A DNA stretch of 6,040 bases from Candidatus Tectimicrobiota bacterium (GTDB taxonomy: Bacteria; JACPSX01). Both the position numbers and the translations under genes were made by a program. The notes beneath the pieces were generated by a model that had not been told where the DNA came from, did not search any database, and saw only the letters and a list, made by a program, of their open reading frames with translations. The DNA lies in assembly GCA_016193065.1 (NCBI GenBank), contig JACPSX010000249.1, forward strand, positions 1-6,040. The letters are read 5' to 3'. Position 1 is the first letter of the stretch; each line of letters starts with the position of its first letter. This document shows, piece after piece, positions 1 to 6,040 of the stretch.

Positions 1-397
1 GCCGGGCAATTTCGGCCGCCTTGTCACTTTTCATGGCGTGTCACAGGTCCCAGTCAACCTGCAGCCCGAGCCAGAAATCCGCCGATATGCCCAGCACACG
101 GGCCAGCCGCAGCGCGGTATTGGCGAGCATCTCGCCCGGATGGGTTAGGGGTCGAAAACACACCCGATACTGCTCGTTGACCCGGATGCTGTGCTGTCCG
201 CTCCGGTTGCCCCTCAGGCGTTCTAACCGGTTACCCGGTGGAGTCGCCAGATCCCGCAAATCGCGCACCCGATTGATCTGATCGAGCTTTCTACGGACAG
301 TAGCCCACAACGCTCTTGGACACGTCCGCCGGGCAACCCGGGTGTCAGACCCGTCGAATATATCCTCCGTCCCCCGATCCCGAAATGAACGTATCAC
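1..397 (-). pseudogene. Decayed higB-higA toxin-antitoxin locus: HigB fused by deletion to HigA C-terminus
   Basis: The reading frame starts at GTG 397 and gives 118 residues ending at TGA 41-43. Residues 1-82 match the HigB/RelE-type mRNA-interferase pattern (MIRSFRDRGTE at the start, then PPGNRLERLRGNRSGQHSIR and YRVCFR). The usual end of the toxin (an acidic strand ending in DYH, which carries catalytic residues in HigB) is missing. Residues 86-91 (HPGEML) are the HigA start motif. Residues 92-118 (NTALRLARVLG, FWLGLQ, DWDL) are the HigA C-terminus, so the helix-turn-helix between them is deleted. At the stop, the second higA fragment in this window has TGG (Trp); here it is TGA. Homology continues past it as HAMKSDKAAEIA to the window edge. 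Neither toxin nor antitoxin is complete, so I call a pseudogene, although a chimeric peptide could still be made. The family assignment is firm; loss of function is inferred. Confidence 0.82.
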
Positions 398-1177: not shown

Positions 1178-1519
1178 TCAGCTGCGTGCTTTGGTACGCC
1201 GAATAGAGCGTCGCGTTGGAGAAGAGGAACGCCCACTTAGCCACTTCTTGAATGAGGTTTGACTTTCACCTGACGGCTTACCCGCCAATAAACCTTCGAC
1301 GCTAATATCTTCGTCGATATCTTCCCAGTGAATACCATGGCCCTTTCCGATCAACCTCCAGTGATTCCTCTCCTCTGGAGTCGAATGTAGGAGCCGAGGA
1401 AACCATGCCAGCGGAACAGAAATAGTTCGCCCATCGCTTAGGTCAACACTTAAGGTATCTTCGGTCACTTTCACTTTCTCAGCATTCGGAATCTCTATTT
1501 CATTTGCCGAAATACCCAT
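1178..1519 (-). CDS. DUF2442 family protein
   Basis: The product has 113 residues. The DUF2442 signature is plain: DGRTISVPLAWFPRLLHSTP (residues 29-48), then WRLIGKGHGIHWEDIDEDIS (54-73) and VEGLLAGKPSGES (74-86). The biochemical function of the family is unknown; some members carry an extra DNA-binding helix-turn-helix, which is not seen here. After the usual end of the family (SFKKWL) there is a basic Ser/Arg-rich tail of about 19 residues that looks lineage-specific. GGAGG lies 6 nt before the ATG, inside the 3' end of the DUF4160 gene, and the two genes overlap by 20 bp, so translation is probably coupled. The pairing suggests a two-protein unit, possibly a toxin-antitoxin-like module with this as second partner, but that role is inferred. 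It is AT-richer than the right half of the window. Confidence 0.88.
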   Translation of the reverse strand: MGISANEIEIPNAEKVKVTEDTLSVDLSDGRTISVPLAWFPRLLHSTPEERNHWRLIGKGHGIHWEDIDEDISVEGLLAGKPSGESQTSFKKWLSGRSSSPTRRSIRRTKARS

Positions 1520-1736
1520 TCCATGCCTCCACGAATCGTGAATGGTGTTCGTTGATAATTTTCAGGATTTCACCAATTTCCGCCCGGTGAAATCCGCCAC
1601 TGCTTTGCAGTCGAATCGGATCAAGCCAAACTTTTGCGATCTTGTCGTCACGCTCAACGTGAATATGCAACGGCTCGTTCCGATCACCTGCATAAAAGAA
1701 GAATCGATATGGCCCACTTCTGAGTACTGTAGGCAT
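1500..1736 (-). CDS. DUF4160 family protein
   Basis: This is a full-length 78-residue DUF4160 protein. Visible signatures are GPYRFFFYAGDRNEPLHIHV (residues 8-27, with His24 and His26 in the HIHV strand), AKVWLDP (34-40) and a C-terminal helix ending FVEAWNGYFGK. No enzymatic role is established for the family. It is commonly found next to DUF2442, as here, and the small size and overlap resemble toxin-antitoxin pairs; which partner would be toxic cannot be read from sequence. A GAGGAG lies only 3 nt before ATG 1736, a tight spacing. Nearby promoter candidates are TTTACC-16 bp-TATATC close upstream, and the TTGACA promoter of dispersed repeat copy 1 (1848-1877). It is the first gene of the two-gene operon. 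Confidence 0.88.
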   Translation of the reverse strand: MPTVLRSGPYRFFFYAGDRNEPLHIHVERDDKIAKVWLDPIRLQSSGGFHRAEIGEILKIINEHHSRFVEAWNGYFGK

Positions 1737-1847
1737 CTACTCCTCAATGTATCCCATCTTGCCCTGGCTAGCTATAACTGATATATTCCGTTTCCTCCAC
1801 GGGTAAACACGGGCGCATGGGTCAATAAATCGCTTAGGTATGCCTCA

Positions 1848-1897
1848 AGGTTAAGCTTCGATGCAGATGGGTGTCAAGATAAATGATCAGATCCCGA
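1848..1897 (-). repeat. Dispersed promoter-bearing repeat, copy 1 (upstream of DUF4160/DUF2442)
   Basis: The core on the minus strand is GGATCTGATCATTT, then CTTGACACCCATCT. It shares 36 of 45 positions with copy 2 over 1852-1896. The -35 TTGACA is at 1872-1877 and a TAACCT hexamer at 1848-1853 (18-bp spacer), pointing toward the DUF4160 start about 110 bp away. The repeat is directly visible; promoter function is inferred. Confidence 0.65.
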
Positions 1898-2005
1898 TCT
1901 ACTGCGGAAGCTGCGGTTCGAGACGGTGAGACCGCACAGGCACTGTGCCTCACTTGCGGGTGCCGAGGGCGACTGCCAGGCGCAAGCACTTCACTGGGCG
2001 CCAGA
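1898..2005. other. Non-coding spacer with several small hairpins
   Basis: This lies between repeat copy 1 and the second higA fragment. It holds GCACAG-gca-CTGTGC (1934-1948, perfect 6-bp stem), the overlapping AGGCA-ctg-TGCCT (1938-1950), and CTTGCG (1953-1958) facing CGCAAG (1981-1986) around an inner GGC/GCC. No coding signature or T-run is visible. It could end higA transcription on the minus strand or be debris. Confidence 0.35.
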
Positions 2006-2191
2006 TCAGGCCGTGCGACCGACCGGTTCGAGGTGGGCAATCTCAGCCGCCTTCTCGCCTCTCATGGCGTGCCACAGATCCCAGTCGAGCTGCAGCCCGA
2101 GCCAGAAATCCGCCGGCATGCCCAGAACACGGGCCAGCCGCAGCGCAGTATCGGGGGTCACAGCCCGCTTGCCACGGATGAGTGCGTTAAG
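2006..2191 (-). pseudogene. Second higA antitoxin remnant (C-terminal part only)
   Basis: Read on the minus strand, this encodes NALIRGKRAVTPDTALRLAR, then VLGMPADFWLGLQLDWDLWH and a tail ending at TGA 2006-2008. It is the end of the HTH plus the C-terminal helix region of a HigA-type antitoxin. Upstream of about 2190 the similarity stops abruptly, and no start codon gives a complete antitoxin, so the N-terminal half and any partner toxin are gone. Positions 2032-2151 match 1-120 at 104 of 120 bases in the same orientation. Unlike copy 1, the Trp before HAM is intact and the reading frame runs about 20 residues further. The break lies about 110 bp from the divergently oriented DUF4143 ATPase, suggesting that insertion or rearrangement there truncated the gene. 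Confidence 0.82.
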
Positions 2192-2248
2192 ACATGGGAA
2201 CGATACCTCAATTGGGGAAAAGTAGATTTGCGCTGGGGGAGTTTTTCG

Positions 2249-2289
2249 TACCTTGAAATTTCTGTTGATAGGACAGAGTTTTCAAGGTA
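2249..2289 (+). promoter_or_regulatory. 41-nt interrupted palindrome in the leader of the DUF4143 ATPase
   Basis: Arms TACCTTGAAA (2249-2258) and TTTCAAGGTA (2280-2289) are a perfect 10-bp inverted repeat. Inside, TCTGT (2261-2265) and ACAGA (2273-2277) pair perfectly around a 7-nt loop, separated from the outer stem by a 2x2 internal loop with one possible G-U pair. The right arm contains AAGG (2284-2287), the only Shine-Dalgarno-like sequence before ATG 2300. The element could therefore be a protein-binding operator or an RNA hairpin that hides the ribosome site. Confidence 0.6.
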
Positions 2290-2299
2290 AGATTTCGTC

Positions 2300-3472
2300 A
2301 TGATAGACCGGCACCGAGAAGTGAATACTCTTAGCGCTCTTCTGAAACGCCACCGGGTTGTCGGAATCATCGGCGCTCGCCAGGTGGGAAAAACAACGCT
2401 GGCACGCTCTCTCCTCAAACAGATACGCGGCAACTCCACATACTACGATCTGGAAAATCCCGAGGATTTGGCGCGGCTTGCCGACCCCATGTATACGCTC
2501 AAGGGGTTAAAGGGGATTGTTATTATCGATGAGATACAACGATTTCCCGACCTTTTCCCCATCCTGAGAGTGCTTGTGGATCGACCGAAGACGTCAACGC
2601 GGTTTCTGGTTCTCGGGAGCGCTTCCCCTGCTCTCCTTCGTCAAGGTTCTGAAACCCTCGCCGGCCGTATTATTTATCATGAACTGGCAGGCTTTTCTCT
2701 GGAAGAGGTGGGAATCAAGAACTATCGGCGATTGTGGCTGCGCGGGGGGTTCCCGCGGTCATACCTTGCTCCCTCCGACGCGGTCAGCGAAGAATGGCGT
2801 CGCGGCTTCATACGCACTTTTCTCGAAAGAGACCTCCCGCAGTTAGGGATTACCATCCGTTCAACTACGATGCACAGGTTCTGGAGCATGTTGGCGCATT
2901 ATCACGGTCAGATATGGAATGCCTCGGAATTCGGGCGGTCTTTTGGCGTGGCCGATACTACTGTACGCAGCTATCTTGATTTGTTGTCATCGGCGCTGGT
3001 GGTGAGGCAGTTACTGCCGTGGCATGAAAACATCTCAAAACGCCAGGTCAAATCACCCAAGGTCTACATTGCAGACAGCGGGCTGCTCCATACGCTGCTC
3101 GGCATTGAAACCCGTAACGATCTGGAAAGACATCCCAAGATTGGGGCCTCATGGGAAGGATTCGTCATCGAGCAGGTTATCCGTTGGACGGGATCCAGGA
3201 AAGAGGATTGTTTTTTCTGGGCGACGCATGCGGGCGCGGAACTGGACCTTCTTGTCGTCAAGGGAAGAGACAGGCTGGGATTTGAGGTGAAACTTACAAG
3301 CTCACCGCGGGTGACCCCATCGATGCGAAGCGCCCTTTCAGACCTGAAACTTCAGCGCTTGCATGTAATCCATACAGGGGAAGAGACATTTATGCTTGAG
3401 AGAAACATACAGGCGCTGGCGATGCCCCGCTTGCTGGATGATCTCAAGGCTGATTATGTAGAGGGCAAATAA
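2300..3472 (+). CDS. AAA-family ATPase with C-terminal DUF4143 domain
   Basis: The 390-residue product is the normal length for AAA_14/DUF4143 proteins. Walker A is GARQVGKTT (residues 25-33, Lys31), Walker B is IVIIDEIQ (73-80, Asp77/Glu78), and a sensor-like LGSAS lies at 105-109. After LERDLP (175-180) comes a winged-helix-like part (about 205-240). The DUF4143 C-terminal half shows KVYIADSGLLHTLLG (254-268), WEGFVIEQVI (285-294), then a PD-(D/E)xK nuclease-like core with ELD (314-316) and EVK (329-331). All nucleotide-binding residues and the E-x-K are present, so the gene looks intact. The family is widespread, cytoplasmic and poorly understood; ATP hydrolysis is expected and the nuclease activity is only suggested by motif. 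It is transcribed alone, divergent from a truncated higA and convergent with the ferritin gene. The ATG is supported by conserved MIDR and an AAGG 12 nt upstream, inside a palindrome. Confidence 0.93.
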   Translation: MIDRHREVNTLSALLKRHRVVGIIGARQVGKTTLARSLLKQIRGNSTYYDLENPEDLARLADPMYTLKGLKGIVIIDEIQRFPDLFPILRVLVDRPKTSTRFLVLGSASPALLRQGSETLAGRIIYHELAGFSLEEVGIKNYRRLWLRGGFPRSYLAPSDAVSEEWRRGFIRTFLERDLPQLGITIRSTTMHRFWSMLAHYHGQIWNASEFGRSFGVADTTVRSYLDLLSSALVVRQLLPWHENISKRQVKSPKVYIADSGLLHTLLGIETRNDLERHPKIGASWEGFVIEQVIRWTGSRKEDCFFWATHAGAELDLLVVKGRDRLGFEVKLTSSPRVTPSMRSALSDLKLQRLHVIHTGEETFMLERNIQALAMPRLLDDLKADYVEGK

Positions 3473-3512
3473 TGAATGCCCCTTCATCACAACCACTGAC
3501 TCCATCCGCACA

Positions 3513-3560
3513 ACAGGGTTCCTGCGGGCAAACGATCGACGCGGAACCGGCCCTGTTCCG
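3513..3560. terminator. Candidate stem-loop between convergent genes
   Basis: Two overlapping foldings are visible in the 130-bp gap between the converging ATPase and ferritin genes. One is ACAGGGTTCC (3513-3522) against GGAACC plus CCCTGT (3543-3556, small bulge). The other is CGGAAC (3542-3547) against GTTCCG (3555-3560). Neither has a clear U-run, so a shared terminator is plausible by position but weak by sequence. Confidence 0.35.
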
Positions 3561-3602
3561 GCGAGGTCTTAGAACTCAAAACAACCTATTCCGTGCTCAC
3601 GC

Positions 3603-3881
3603 TTACTCGTGGGCAAGAGATTTATCCGTGAAGAGGTAATCTTTCAGTTCCTTGGAAAAAGTGGGATCTTTCCGGCGGATCCACTCCAGGATCATTGCGG
3701 CGTGTTCTTTCTCTTCATCCCGGTTGTGAGCAAGGGTCGCCCTTAGTTCTTTGTCCTTGCATACATCGACCCTCTGGTTGTACCAATTAATGGCCTCTAA
3801 TTCCTCCTTCAATGATTCAATCGCGCGGTGCATATCGCGCACTTCGTCCGAAAGCTCGTTGCTCGATTCCTGGTACGGCAT
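3603..3881 (-). CDS. Encapsulin-type ferritin-like protein (EncFtn family), stand-alone
   Basis: This 92-residue protein is recognisable by EELEAINWYNQRVD (residues 26-39), LAHNRDEEKEHAAM (50-63), LEWIRR (65-70) and YLFTD (82-86). EncFtn proteins are two-helix half-ferritins that assemble as dimers with the iron-oxidising centre at the interface. By comparison with Rhodospirillum EncFtn, ligands Glu27, Glu57 and His60, and entry-site Glu26 and Glu29, are all present, as are Trp33 and Tyr34, so Fe(II) oxidation is expected. Unlike encapsulated members it ends at LFTDKSLAHE, with no C-terminal cargo-loading peptide. No encapsulin gene lies beside it: the convergent ATPase is downstream and 660 bp of spacer upstream. 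The start is well supported by AGAGGAG about 7 nt before the ATG. It could load a remote encapsulin or work free in the cytoplasm. Confidence 0.9.
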   Translation of the reverse strand: MPYQESSNELSDEVRDMHRAIESLKEELEAINWYNQRVDVCKDKELRATLAHNRDEEKEHAAMILEWIRRKDPTFSKELKDYLFTDKSLAHE

Positions 3882-3919
3882 TGAGTTTCTCCTCTCGGTT
3901 CGAATTCCCCCTCACCCTC

Positions 3920-3943
3920 CCCTCTCCCCTTGAGGGGAGAGGG
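3920..3943. repeat. Perfect 10-bp hairpin repeat CCCTCTCCCC-ttga-GGGGAGAGGG
   Basis: The arms pair at every position around a 4-nt loop. This C/G-rich palindrome is a familiar dispersed intergenic element in many bacterial genomes. If transcription starts at the candidate promoter at 3974-4002, it lies in the 5' leader of the ferritin mRNA, about 25 nt upstream of its Shine-Dalgarno sequence, and might affect mRNA stability. No T-run follows. Confidence 0.8.
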
Positions 3944-3973
3944 ACAGACTAAGGTGTGGCGGTGCCTTCTTAA

Positions 3974-4002
3974 AATATAAGACGTCGCATCTCATTTCGC
4001 AA
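3974..4002 (-). promoter_or_regulatory. Candidate sigma70 promoter of the ferritin gene
   Basis: On the minus strand, TTGCGA (3997-4002, 4/6 match) is followed after 17 bp by TATATT (3974-3979, 5/6). Transcription would begin near 3967, giving a leader of about 85 nt that includes the 10-bp hairpin. No Fur-like palindrome was recognised nearby. Confidence 0.5.
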
Positions 4003-4070
4003 AGATGAACCACCTTTCCCGCACCCGGTTCGATCAACTCACCACAGGCTTCGACATGTCTGTTCTGAGC

Positions 4071-4108
4071 CCGCCGCTTTCCTTCGACAAGCTCAGGACG
4101 AGCGGCGG
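4071..4108. repeat. REP-like inverted repeat containing TTCGACAAGCTCAGG
   Basis: Perfect 8-bp outer arms CCGCCGCT (4071-4078) and AGCGGCGG (4101-4108) flank CCTTCGACAAGCTCAGGACG, the common proteobacterial REP core. Degraded relatives of the same core precede it (CTTCGACATGTCTGTTCTGAG from about 4049), so this looks like an eroded REP cluster. Confidence 0.65.
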
Positions 4109-4254
4109 AGTCAAAGAGCTCAGGGGAACGGGGCGCCCGTTGAACACATTGAATGAGGATTCCCGAACGCCGCCATAGCCCTGCCCTCCCATCCGATCAG
4201 ACAGGGAGTATTTCGGAGCAACCAGCGAATAAGGTGAACTCTCAAGGTAGCCAA

Positions 4255-4303
4255 AGCATAAGCTTGGGCTGAGATGGGTGTCAAGCAAAATGACCAGATC
4301 CGG
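4255..4303 (-). repeat. Dispersed promoter-bearing repeat, copy 2 (upstream of the ferritin gene)
   Basis: The minus-strand core is GGATCTGGTCATTTTGC then TTGACACCCATCT. The -35 TTGACA is at 4279-4284 and TATGCT at 4255-4260 with an 18-bp spacer, the best -10 match of the three copies. It points toward the ferritin gene but starts about 370 bp from it, beyond the REP fragments, so it may instead serve as an extra upstream promoter. Confidence 0.6.
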
Positions 4304-4422
4304 CTCTCCTGGAAAAAATGGGCTATCGGCGATTCAAGGCTGGATCGGCTATGGAGTCCGAGAGAAGCCGGAGTGGCGGCTCTGCTTTTTGCGCCCTTCG
4401 TTGCGCCGCAAGTTAGGCTTCA

Positions 4423-4485
4423 GGCCTCCGGAAACGGTGGGCACCTTAAAGCTGTGCCCGCCGTCCCTGGGATGAAGCGGAGGCC
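4423..4485. repeat. Nested inverted repeat downstream of the protease gene
   Basis: Outer arms GGCCTCCG (4423-4430) and CGGAGGCC (4478-4485) are perfect. Within them ACGGTGGGCA (4434-4443) pairs with TGCCCGCCGT (4455-4464), 10 bp with one G-U, around an 11-nt loop. It begins 59 bp past the protease stop. It may end protease transcription on the minus strand, but lacks a U-run; a small structured RNA or repeat remnant is possible. Confidence 0.55.
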
Positions 4486-4543
4486 TCATACGGGGCTGGT
4501 CGCGACCGGTGTGCGATCGACTCTGCGCTCGAGAGGTGGCGTC

Positions 4544-5665
4544 CTACGGGAAGTCGTTGCGAGCCCTGATGATACAGTCGACCATGTGGGCACCGCCGCT
4601 CGCCGAGTTCTCGTCGGATGTCTGCCCGCTCTGGTCGGCGACGACCCGCGGCCACGATTCTCCATCCCACCAGGCGAAGAACGGGCCGCCCGACTGCCCG
4701 GGCCAAACGTCACCCTGGTGGAAGATCCGCGTGTGGACTTCGCGGTCCCAGAAGGACCCGTCGAGCGCGATGCTTCCCTGGTACGAGGGACGCTGGCCAC
4801 CTGCCAAGTCGCCGGGATAGCCGATGTGGCTCCAGTAGGGCTCGCCGTCCCAGTCGTCCGACCAACTCCGGGAACCCATCCAGCCGGTGAGATCGCCGAT
4901 TCGATTATTGAGCACCACCGCTACGTAGTCGTGTTGGCCCTCCGTGCGGTTCAGCGAGGGGCCGAACACCTTCAACTCCTCCCAGTATATCCACGTGCCC
5001 CAGGCAACGCCGAAGGGTGCGCTTCCGTCGAAGTACGCAGGCGTGAATTTGACCCAACCGGCCGTGCCGTCGGAGTTCCACTGGATCGCATGGCTGCAGG
5101 TGAGCATGTGGCGGGGCCCAACCATCACGCCGCTTGCCTGGCCACCCGGGGTGTCCACGCGGCCAACGGTGCACCAGGGAAACGCCGTGTCATTGAAGGT
5201 GTAGCGGTTGTCCGGCGCGAAGATAGTCGTCGCCTGGTGTACGTCCCTTGGCCGATCCGGCAGCGCCGCACTCTGGACGCGAGGGGGCACCACGAGATCG
5301 GACGGAAGGCGCCTCGGAAGTGGCCGAAGCGGCAAGTGATCGGGTAGGTAACCCTCGAAATCGGGCCACTCCTTCTGTCTCTGCCGGATGTCCTTCTCCG
5401 GCCCGAACTTGCGGGTCTCGATTGCCGGCGGAAGGGCGTGCACTCCGAGCGTGGCGCCCCGGACTGAAAGCTTCACCTCGTAGGCCTGGCCCATGTTTCT
5501 GCCCTTGCTCGCTGCCACCGACAAATAAACCTGGGGCGTCGCGGTGGCGGCGAGCATTACCGACATTTCGAGGGGCAGTTCCTCCGCGCTCTTTAATGGC
5601 TCTCGCGGCTTCAGTCGCGCCACAAGCTCGTCCAAGTGAAGTGGTCGTGCGGGTTTCTCTGGCAT
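4544..5665 (-). CDS. Trypsin-like serine protease (S1/V8 type) with long N-terminal extension
   Basis: The product has 373 residues. The protease domain occupies about 150-373. The catalytic His192 is in MLTCSHAI, Asp246 in QHDYVAVV, and the nucleophile Ser325 in GQSGGP (323-328), with glycines forming the oxyanion pocket. The arrangement and the HDYVAVVLNN and GYPGD strands fit the bacterial V8/glutamyl-endopeptidase branch of the chymotrypsin fold. Residues 1-149 form a proline- and arginine-rich region, including a segment with predicted beta character (about 33-75), that may act as a propeptide or binding module. No signal peptide or membrane helix is visible at the start, so export by the usual Sec route is not supported. 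Cys165 and Cys190 could bridge next to the active site. AGGGGG lies 8 nt before the ATG. The region is GC-rich and has long antisense open frames, which are shadows. The natural substrate is unknown. Confidence 0.88.
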   Translation of the reverse strand: MPEKPARPLHLDELVARLKPREPLKSAEELPLEMSVMLAATATPQVYLSVAASKGRNMGQAYEVKLSVRGATLGVHALPPAIETRKFGPEKDIRQRQKEWPDFEGYLPDHLPLRPLPRRLPSDLVVPPRVQSAALPDRPRDVHQATTIFAPDNRYTFNDTAFPWCTVGRVDTPGGQASGVMVGPRHMLTCSHAIQWNSDGTAGWVKFTPAYFDGSAPFGVAWGTWIYWEELKVFGPSLNRTEGQHDYVAVVLNNRIGDLTGWMGSRSWSDDWDGEPYWSHIGYPGDLAGGQRPSYQGSIALDGSFWDREVHTRIFHQGDVWPGQSGGPFFAWWDGESWPRVVADQSGQTSDENSASGGAHMVDCIIRARNDFP

Positions 5666-5915
5666 TTCTTTTACCCCCTCTCAGATTCTGAGTTTGACTC
5701 GTCGCTCCGACTTCAATTGGTCAACTTGCATCAAGAATAAGATCACCTCCCTTCAAGCCACCAAGCAATATGTCGCCAAACTATGGATCCTATGGTTCCG
5801 TATAAGAACCCTGGTGTTGCCTCCCTGCAGCATAAGACCCTTGGTCCTCATCTCGCAAAAACGCTGCGGAGGTCGTATCCGTCTTCCAACAAATGAATGG
5901 CAAGAGAATACCCTA

Positions 5916-5970
5916 ACACTAACGTTCGCCTAAGATGGTGTCAAGGAAAATGACCTGATCCTTGACAACC
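5916..5970 (-). repeat. Dispersed promoter-bearing repeat, copy 3 (upstream of the protease)
   Basis: The minus-strand core is GGATCAGGTCATTTTCC then TTGACACCATCT. The -35 TTGACA is at 5939-5944 and TAGTGT at 5916-5921 with a 17-bp spacer, pointing to the protease about 250 bp away. This copy lacks one C after TTGACA. It also contains a perfect 9-bp inverted repeat, TGTCAAGGA (5939-5947) and TCCTTGACA (5959-5967), not present in the other two copies. Confidence 0.62.
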
Positions 5971-5990
5971 TCCCTGGATTCCCCTACAGT
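5962..5990 (+). promoter_or_regulatory. Candidate sigma70 promoter pointing out of the right edge
   Basis: TTGACA (5962-5967) and TACAGT (5985-5990, 4/6) are 17 bp apart. The -35 box is the right arm of the inverted repeat whose left arm supplies the -35 of the opposite promoter, so the two would be divergent, face-away promoters. Any gene served would begin beyond 6040. Confidence 0.4.
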
Positions 5991-6000
5991 GAGGCCGCAT

Positions 6001-6019
6001 GATCCCGTCGGGCGGGATC
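6001..6019. repeat. Short perfect hairpin GATCCCG-tcggg-CGGGATC
   Basis: The 7-bp stem (6001-6007 with 6013-6019) is perfect around a 5-nt loop, and the loop repeats the stem's CGGG. If the plus-strand promoter at 5962-5990 is used, the hairpin lies at the very 5' end of that transcript. There is no T-run on either side. Confidence 0.5.
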
Positions 6020-6040
6020 CGAATCACCCATTCACAAGGC

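Follow-up and report, generated by a model that had tools for sequence, protein, structure and literature searches.

Three co-oriented repeats in a 6-kb contig

The window, a 6,040-nt stretch of DNA from a Candidatus Tectimicrobiota bacterium, is the complete contig C179 of a 2.9-Mb draft genome in 294 contigs (other contigs are given below by their C numbers). Three co-oriented copies of a repeat (c1, c2 and c3) lie on its minus strand, where the initial annotation had placed them, and the −35 and −10 hexamers and spacings that it had listed are correct in all three. As it had also claimed, each copy faces a different accessory gene: a DUF4160/DUF2442 pair (c1), an encapsulin-associated ferritin-like (EncFtn) gene (c2) and a trypsin-like peptidase gene (c3).

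The head of c1 (1839–1894, minus strand) carries TTGACA at 1872–1877, an 18-bp spacer and the −10 hexamer TAACCT at 1848–1853, which we read as a relic of an integron integrase (intI) promoter. Behind it on the same strand, at 1789–1823, is a relic of the IntI C-terminus, the counterpart of ..IYTHVLNRGG.., placed by comparison with the intI tail on C103. This is the window's best place against that tail (0 of 1000 shuffles equal it), and the fragment is recognizable solely via the C103 copies. All intI sequence between the promoter and the C-terminal relic is gone. The DUF4160 gene (1500–1736, minus strand) comes first after c1 and overlaps the DUF2442 gene (1178–1519).

The head of c2 (4151–4304, minus strand) comprises an intI promoter (−35 at 4279–4284, 18 bp, −10 TATGCT at 4255–4260, minus strand), a leader of about 80 nt containing a G-rich, ribosome-binding-like stretch, an ATG at 4174–4176 and the first intI codons; it matches the head model described below with an E value of 2e-34. 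The next co-directed gene is the EncFtn gene (3603–3881, minus strand); the window contains no encapsulin shell gene.

The promoter of c3 (head 5906–5964, minus strand; −35 at 5939–5944, 17 bp, −10 TAGTGT at 5916–5921) runs into a relic of the IntI C-terminal domain, YSLAIHLLEDGYDLRSV (5860–5910, minus strand), which matches IntI residues 272–288. With 17 residues, this fragment reaches an E value of 0.02 by itself in tblastn; that it lies behind the head and has a paralogue on C103 backs the assignment. An attI-like block follows 3′ of the relic (5779–5860, minus strand; 84% identical to C103:3535–3616). The first gene after c3 is the peptidase gene (4544–5665, minus strand), whose score is under the Pfam cut-off.

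Upstream of c3, positions 5929–6040 are 97% identical to C103:3987–4099, 113 bp that on C103 form the 5′ region of an MFS transporter gene. This block holds a divergent promoter-like TTGACA-17-TACAGT (5962–5990, plus strand). The 97% identity before the promoter gives way to abrupt divergence directly after TTGACACC, and identity rises again, to 84%, within the attI-like block. This sequence pattern may reflect gene conversion or recombination at the c3/C103 head.

The core GATCNGRTCATTTNNCTTGACACC has four exact matches in the 2.9-Mb genome, three in the 6-kb window, far more than expected by chance, and one at C103:3996–4019; the reversed control has none. With up to two mismatches allowed, none of 97 other genomes contains the core, and no exact match was found in viral contigs. 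The sole exact match among 84,980 GTDB genomes, in a member of the Desulfobacterales, lies within the livM coding sequence and was set aside as chance. No known RNA family came near threshold for the repeats, which are longer than small isolated units: c1 and c2 have 53–58 bp in common, and homology of c2 extends about 150 bp downstream.

The repeats as front ends of decayed integrase genes

A search with the longer C103 copy carried the homology further downstream and added C103:2296–2482, C98, C49 and C66. The aligned heads share TTGAC(A/T) and, after a spacer of 16–18 bp, a TA...T hexamer. These are followed by a leader of some 80–100 nt, a G-rich ribosome-binding-like stretch and the start codon, which is ATG except for GTG in one copy. 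Six heads can be aligned over 158 positions, ATG included, and a sequence model built from these six detects an additional head on C25 (E 3e-8). Copies c1 and c3 score weakly against this model (E 0.05) because only the promoter part is left.

What follows the start codon identifies the parent gene. The C98 frame reads LDRVREAIRTRHYSYRTEKAYIHWIKRF, the N-terminus of integron integrases, and the C49 copy is likewise N-terminal; for the 53-aa N-terminal piece from C49, the only NCBIfam matches are the integron integrase models TIGR02249 and PRK15417. Fragments matching TIGR02249 lie on C49, C131, C188, C98, C145, C48, C41, C103, C73, C66 and C273, all under the cut-off. Further matches on C78, C31 and C37 resemble other tyrosine recombinases and were excluded from the relic count. 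A tblastn search with an integron integrase placed an N-terminal part, a C-terminal part or both at most relics; the relics are thus homologous to IntI, weakly so for c3 and c1 taken alone.

Merging fragments by judgement, we count about 16 intI relics in the draft genome, and several arrays hold more than one: three on C179, two on C103 and two on C48. The two on C103 each combine promoter, start and a ..YTHVLNRGG..-like C-terminal end, and the C66 relic is built alike; on C49, head and tail are separated. In c1 and c3 the promoter is joined directly to IntI C-terminal sequence, and c2 retains leader and start codon. No complete or functional IntI with its specific additional domain exceeded the TIGR02249 cut-off in the draft genome, which yielded fragments only. 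An intact intI may have escaped the assembly, the draft being 86% complete.

From these comparisons we conclude, with high though not full confidence, that each repeat is the promoter (PintI), with the leader where retained, of an intI gene that died by loss of its interior in a co-oriented integron layout. Searches near the intI genes of other genomes did not find the same head. The heads thus appear lineage-specific among the genomes searched, none of which is another member of the phylum.

The initial annotation had offered a REP/RAYT-type element with an incidental TTGACA as its alternative and a Y1 transposase as the check. Both kinds of element are dispersed short repeats, here partly palindromic in one window copy: a short inverted repeat surrounds the core in c3 and on C103, and the genome does have two Y1 transposase genes. 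However, c1 and c2 lack the inverted repeat, neither Y1 contig stretch carries the motif or a head, and the repeat is accounted for by intI as the parent gene. We consider this alternative extremely improbable.

In a survey of 290 genomes with an IntI C-terminal motif, the present genome was among the highest, with 5 matches at E 1e-6, compared to 11 in genome G086. Several of these 11 matches (loci L107–L117) are internally deleted, and C136 and C317 have the same deletion, which joins IntI residue 131 to 275.

Many internally deleted copies within one genome could also suggest an intI-derived, miniature non-autonomous transposon that spreads a promoter, and the two identically deleted copies in G086 imply that the deleted form was copied there. 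Against this, the copies do not have both ends in common, the upstream limits of the heads differ, no terminal repeats are evident, and segmental duplication of arrays accounts for deletions in common. We therefore regard such a transposon as improbable and retain decayed intI genes as the source of the repeats.

Orientation and recombination sites

The initial annotation had each repeat upstream of a minus-strand gene and asked how copies elsewhere are oriented. All nine genome heads are followed by a co-directed gene, which agrees with it weakly (p about 0.04 against a local background of 69%). By a simple coding score, a co-oriented gene follows 14 of the 15 relics with a downstream neighbour, a modest excess (p 0.03 against the same background). 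The relics are also clustered, with about one gene between neighbours (p 5e-5 against random placement).

The three best attC-like sites in 86 kb of fetched sequence (C131 6759–6669, C49 907–833 and C188 2140–2217) are correctly oriented and lie at most about 50 bp from the stop codon of the gene that comes after a relic. The C188 and C131 sites fold into stacked attC arms with an extrahelical base. It is their placement alone that is telling, as the number of attC-like matches over all loci was not above shuffles in a looser scan; the count from a strict-consensus scan was uninformative. The window yielded no attC site that scored well. A candidate there, after the peptidase gene (about 4412, GTTAGGC), was rejected since it folds no better than shuffles (z 0.28). 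The intI loci of other genomes, which have little flank, gave one co-oriented attC-like site, at locus L098.

Integron recombination crosses over at G|TT. The 3′ paralogous blocks end at this step: ..CAGTAG|TT for C131 compared to C73, ..ATGG|TT for C188 compared to C49, and ..CATAG|TT for C103 and c3 (in the window, G at 5781 and TT at 5780–5779). Because homology stops there, we read the block at 5779–5860 as a putative attI and place the peptidase gene in the first cassette after it; this gene is probably an integron cassette gene, and we infer that the window genes are integron cassettes.

The intI gene of Treponema chromosomal integrons reads towards attI and has the same orientation as the cassettes (PMC3607928). 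The attI-like block, the placement of the attC-like sites and the co-orientation together point to the same order here, with intI, attI and cassettes in one direction; the 14 of 15 relics and the same-strand attC-like sites on C131, C49 and C188 fit integrases transcribed toward the cassettes.

Conservation and possible use of the promoters

By sequence, the promoter elements are of sigma-70 type, with a conserved −35 TTGACA, a TATAAT-like −10 and a spacing of 16–18 bp. Across the nine heads, substitutions affect 3 of the 54 cells of the −35 and none of the 27 cells at −10 positions 1, 2 and 6 (T, A and T; p 1e-5). Together, 3 of 81 cells are substituted in the −35 and key −10 positions, compared to 81 of 216 elsewhere (spacer, −10 positions 3–5 and the six bases after the −10; Fisher p 3e-10), with the caveat that the −10 hexamers were picked after the sequences had been viewed. 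TAnnnT would occur by chance at an allowed spacing in both c1 and c3 with a probability of about 0.002. An independent consensus scan listed c2 (10/12) and the opposite-strand promoter of the block that precedes c3. The claim that promoter bases are kept while the rest varies thus holds, and the pattern supports constraint on these promoters at some time.

In part, this also bears out the proposal of a repeat that supplies promoters to accessory genes, in that conserved promoters do face genes. That it is a promoter-dispersing element as such is not supported; it is the decayed 5′ end of intI. Part of intI separates the promoter from the accessory gene in every window copy, and the repeat owes its existence to having served as the promoter of the integrase itself. 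PintI would have transcribed intI and, in a co-oriented layout, could have continued through attI into the cassettes. Once the interior of intI was lost, the same promoter would have remained about 110–370 bp from accessory genes, pointing through the shortened intI and attI into captured genes. It is plausible that the relic promoters now drive accessory genes, in which case RNA polymerase starting at the window promoters would today transcribe the DUF4160/DUF2442 genes, EncFtn and the peptidase gene.

The intI relics may further have been exapted as cassette promoters, with selection keeping PintI while the integrase was deleted, so that each unit is a promoter arm for one gene. Promoter bases kept against a divergent background, the nine heads that all face a co-oriented gene, the clustering of relics about one gene apart, and the C98 relic, whose frame overlaps the start of the next gene, would all fit. 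However, the conservation may stem from the time of a live intI, co-orientation is expected in such an integron layout regardless, and tandem duplication can yield clustering. We regard exaptation as a real possibility, somewhat short of an even chance. A more general form, which we put forward tentatively and consider rather doubtful, is that dead integrases of co-oriented integrons are repeatedly whittled to a promoter–attI stub that serves as a cassette promoter, turning arrays into strings of separately promoted single-gene units.

Comparison with known integrons

The loci described here resemble the Treponema integrons in that intI, the attI-like block and the cassette genes all point the same way, with attC-like sites after genes. 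They differ in belonging to another bacterium, in lacking an intact intI, and in their roughly 16 relics, several per array and about one gene apart. Pseudogenes make up nearly one third of intI genes, and 20% of integron-bearing bacteria have more than one intI (PMC2426708). Dead integrases are thus common in both settings; here they show a large internal deletion, keep promoter and 3′ end, and occur in many copies per genome.

Promoter-bearing, gene-less cassettes are known (PMC11014356, PMC6557892). As with these, promoters are scattered in the arrays and could drive downstream cassettes, but the promoter here is the residue of an integrase gene, not of a cassette. Delta-attI-type cassettes, which occur in mobile integrons (PMC12901181), likewise place attI-derived pieces inside arrays; the putative pieces here differ in having an intI relic and PintI attached.

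Pseudogenes of intI and promoter cassettes are therefore known already, and the repeats are neither RAYT/REP elements nor a new promoter transposon. Unusual features here are the relic count, the repeated loss of the middle while both ends remain, and arrays that hold several relics. What looked like a promoter-carrying repeat becomes a fossil record of integrons in a bacterium that has been little sampled. It also offers a testable idea on cassette expression after the death of a co-oriented integrase: the integrase promoter stays, close to the cassette. Relics this short (about 16 here, with internally deleted copies also in G086) fall under the curated integron-integrase cut-off, so routine annotation probably misses them.

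Other head families and neighbouring repeats

C41 and C145 carry a head family different from that of the window. On C48 (locus L052), at 22252–22372 and 23086–23204, a second head family (TTGTGC or TTGTAC, then TACAAT) is fused to IntI C-terminal ends, twice in 1 kb. A third family, ..TGACTC.. GTAGGAT ..GGAGGAAGC.. ATGAGAGAGG, is fused to differing IntI parts on C41 (L053, about 390–485) and C145 (L051, contig positions 3291–3382). On C188 (L050, 205–953), about 750 bp interrupt the intI C-terminus; this piece has an opposite-strand frame of 228 aa and TTATGCGCAG / CTGCACATAAG-like ends and resembles an insertion.

Within the window, a HigB toxin-like frame is fused to a HigA end (41–397, minus strand), and the HigA end occurs a second time at 2035–2154, within 2006–2161 (minus strand), with 88% identity over 120 bp. 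Dispersed GTTCGACAGGCTCACCACGAACGG / CCTGAGCTTGTCGAAGG-type repeats, at 968–1107 and 4081–4105, are common to C131, C145 and C49.
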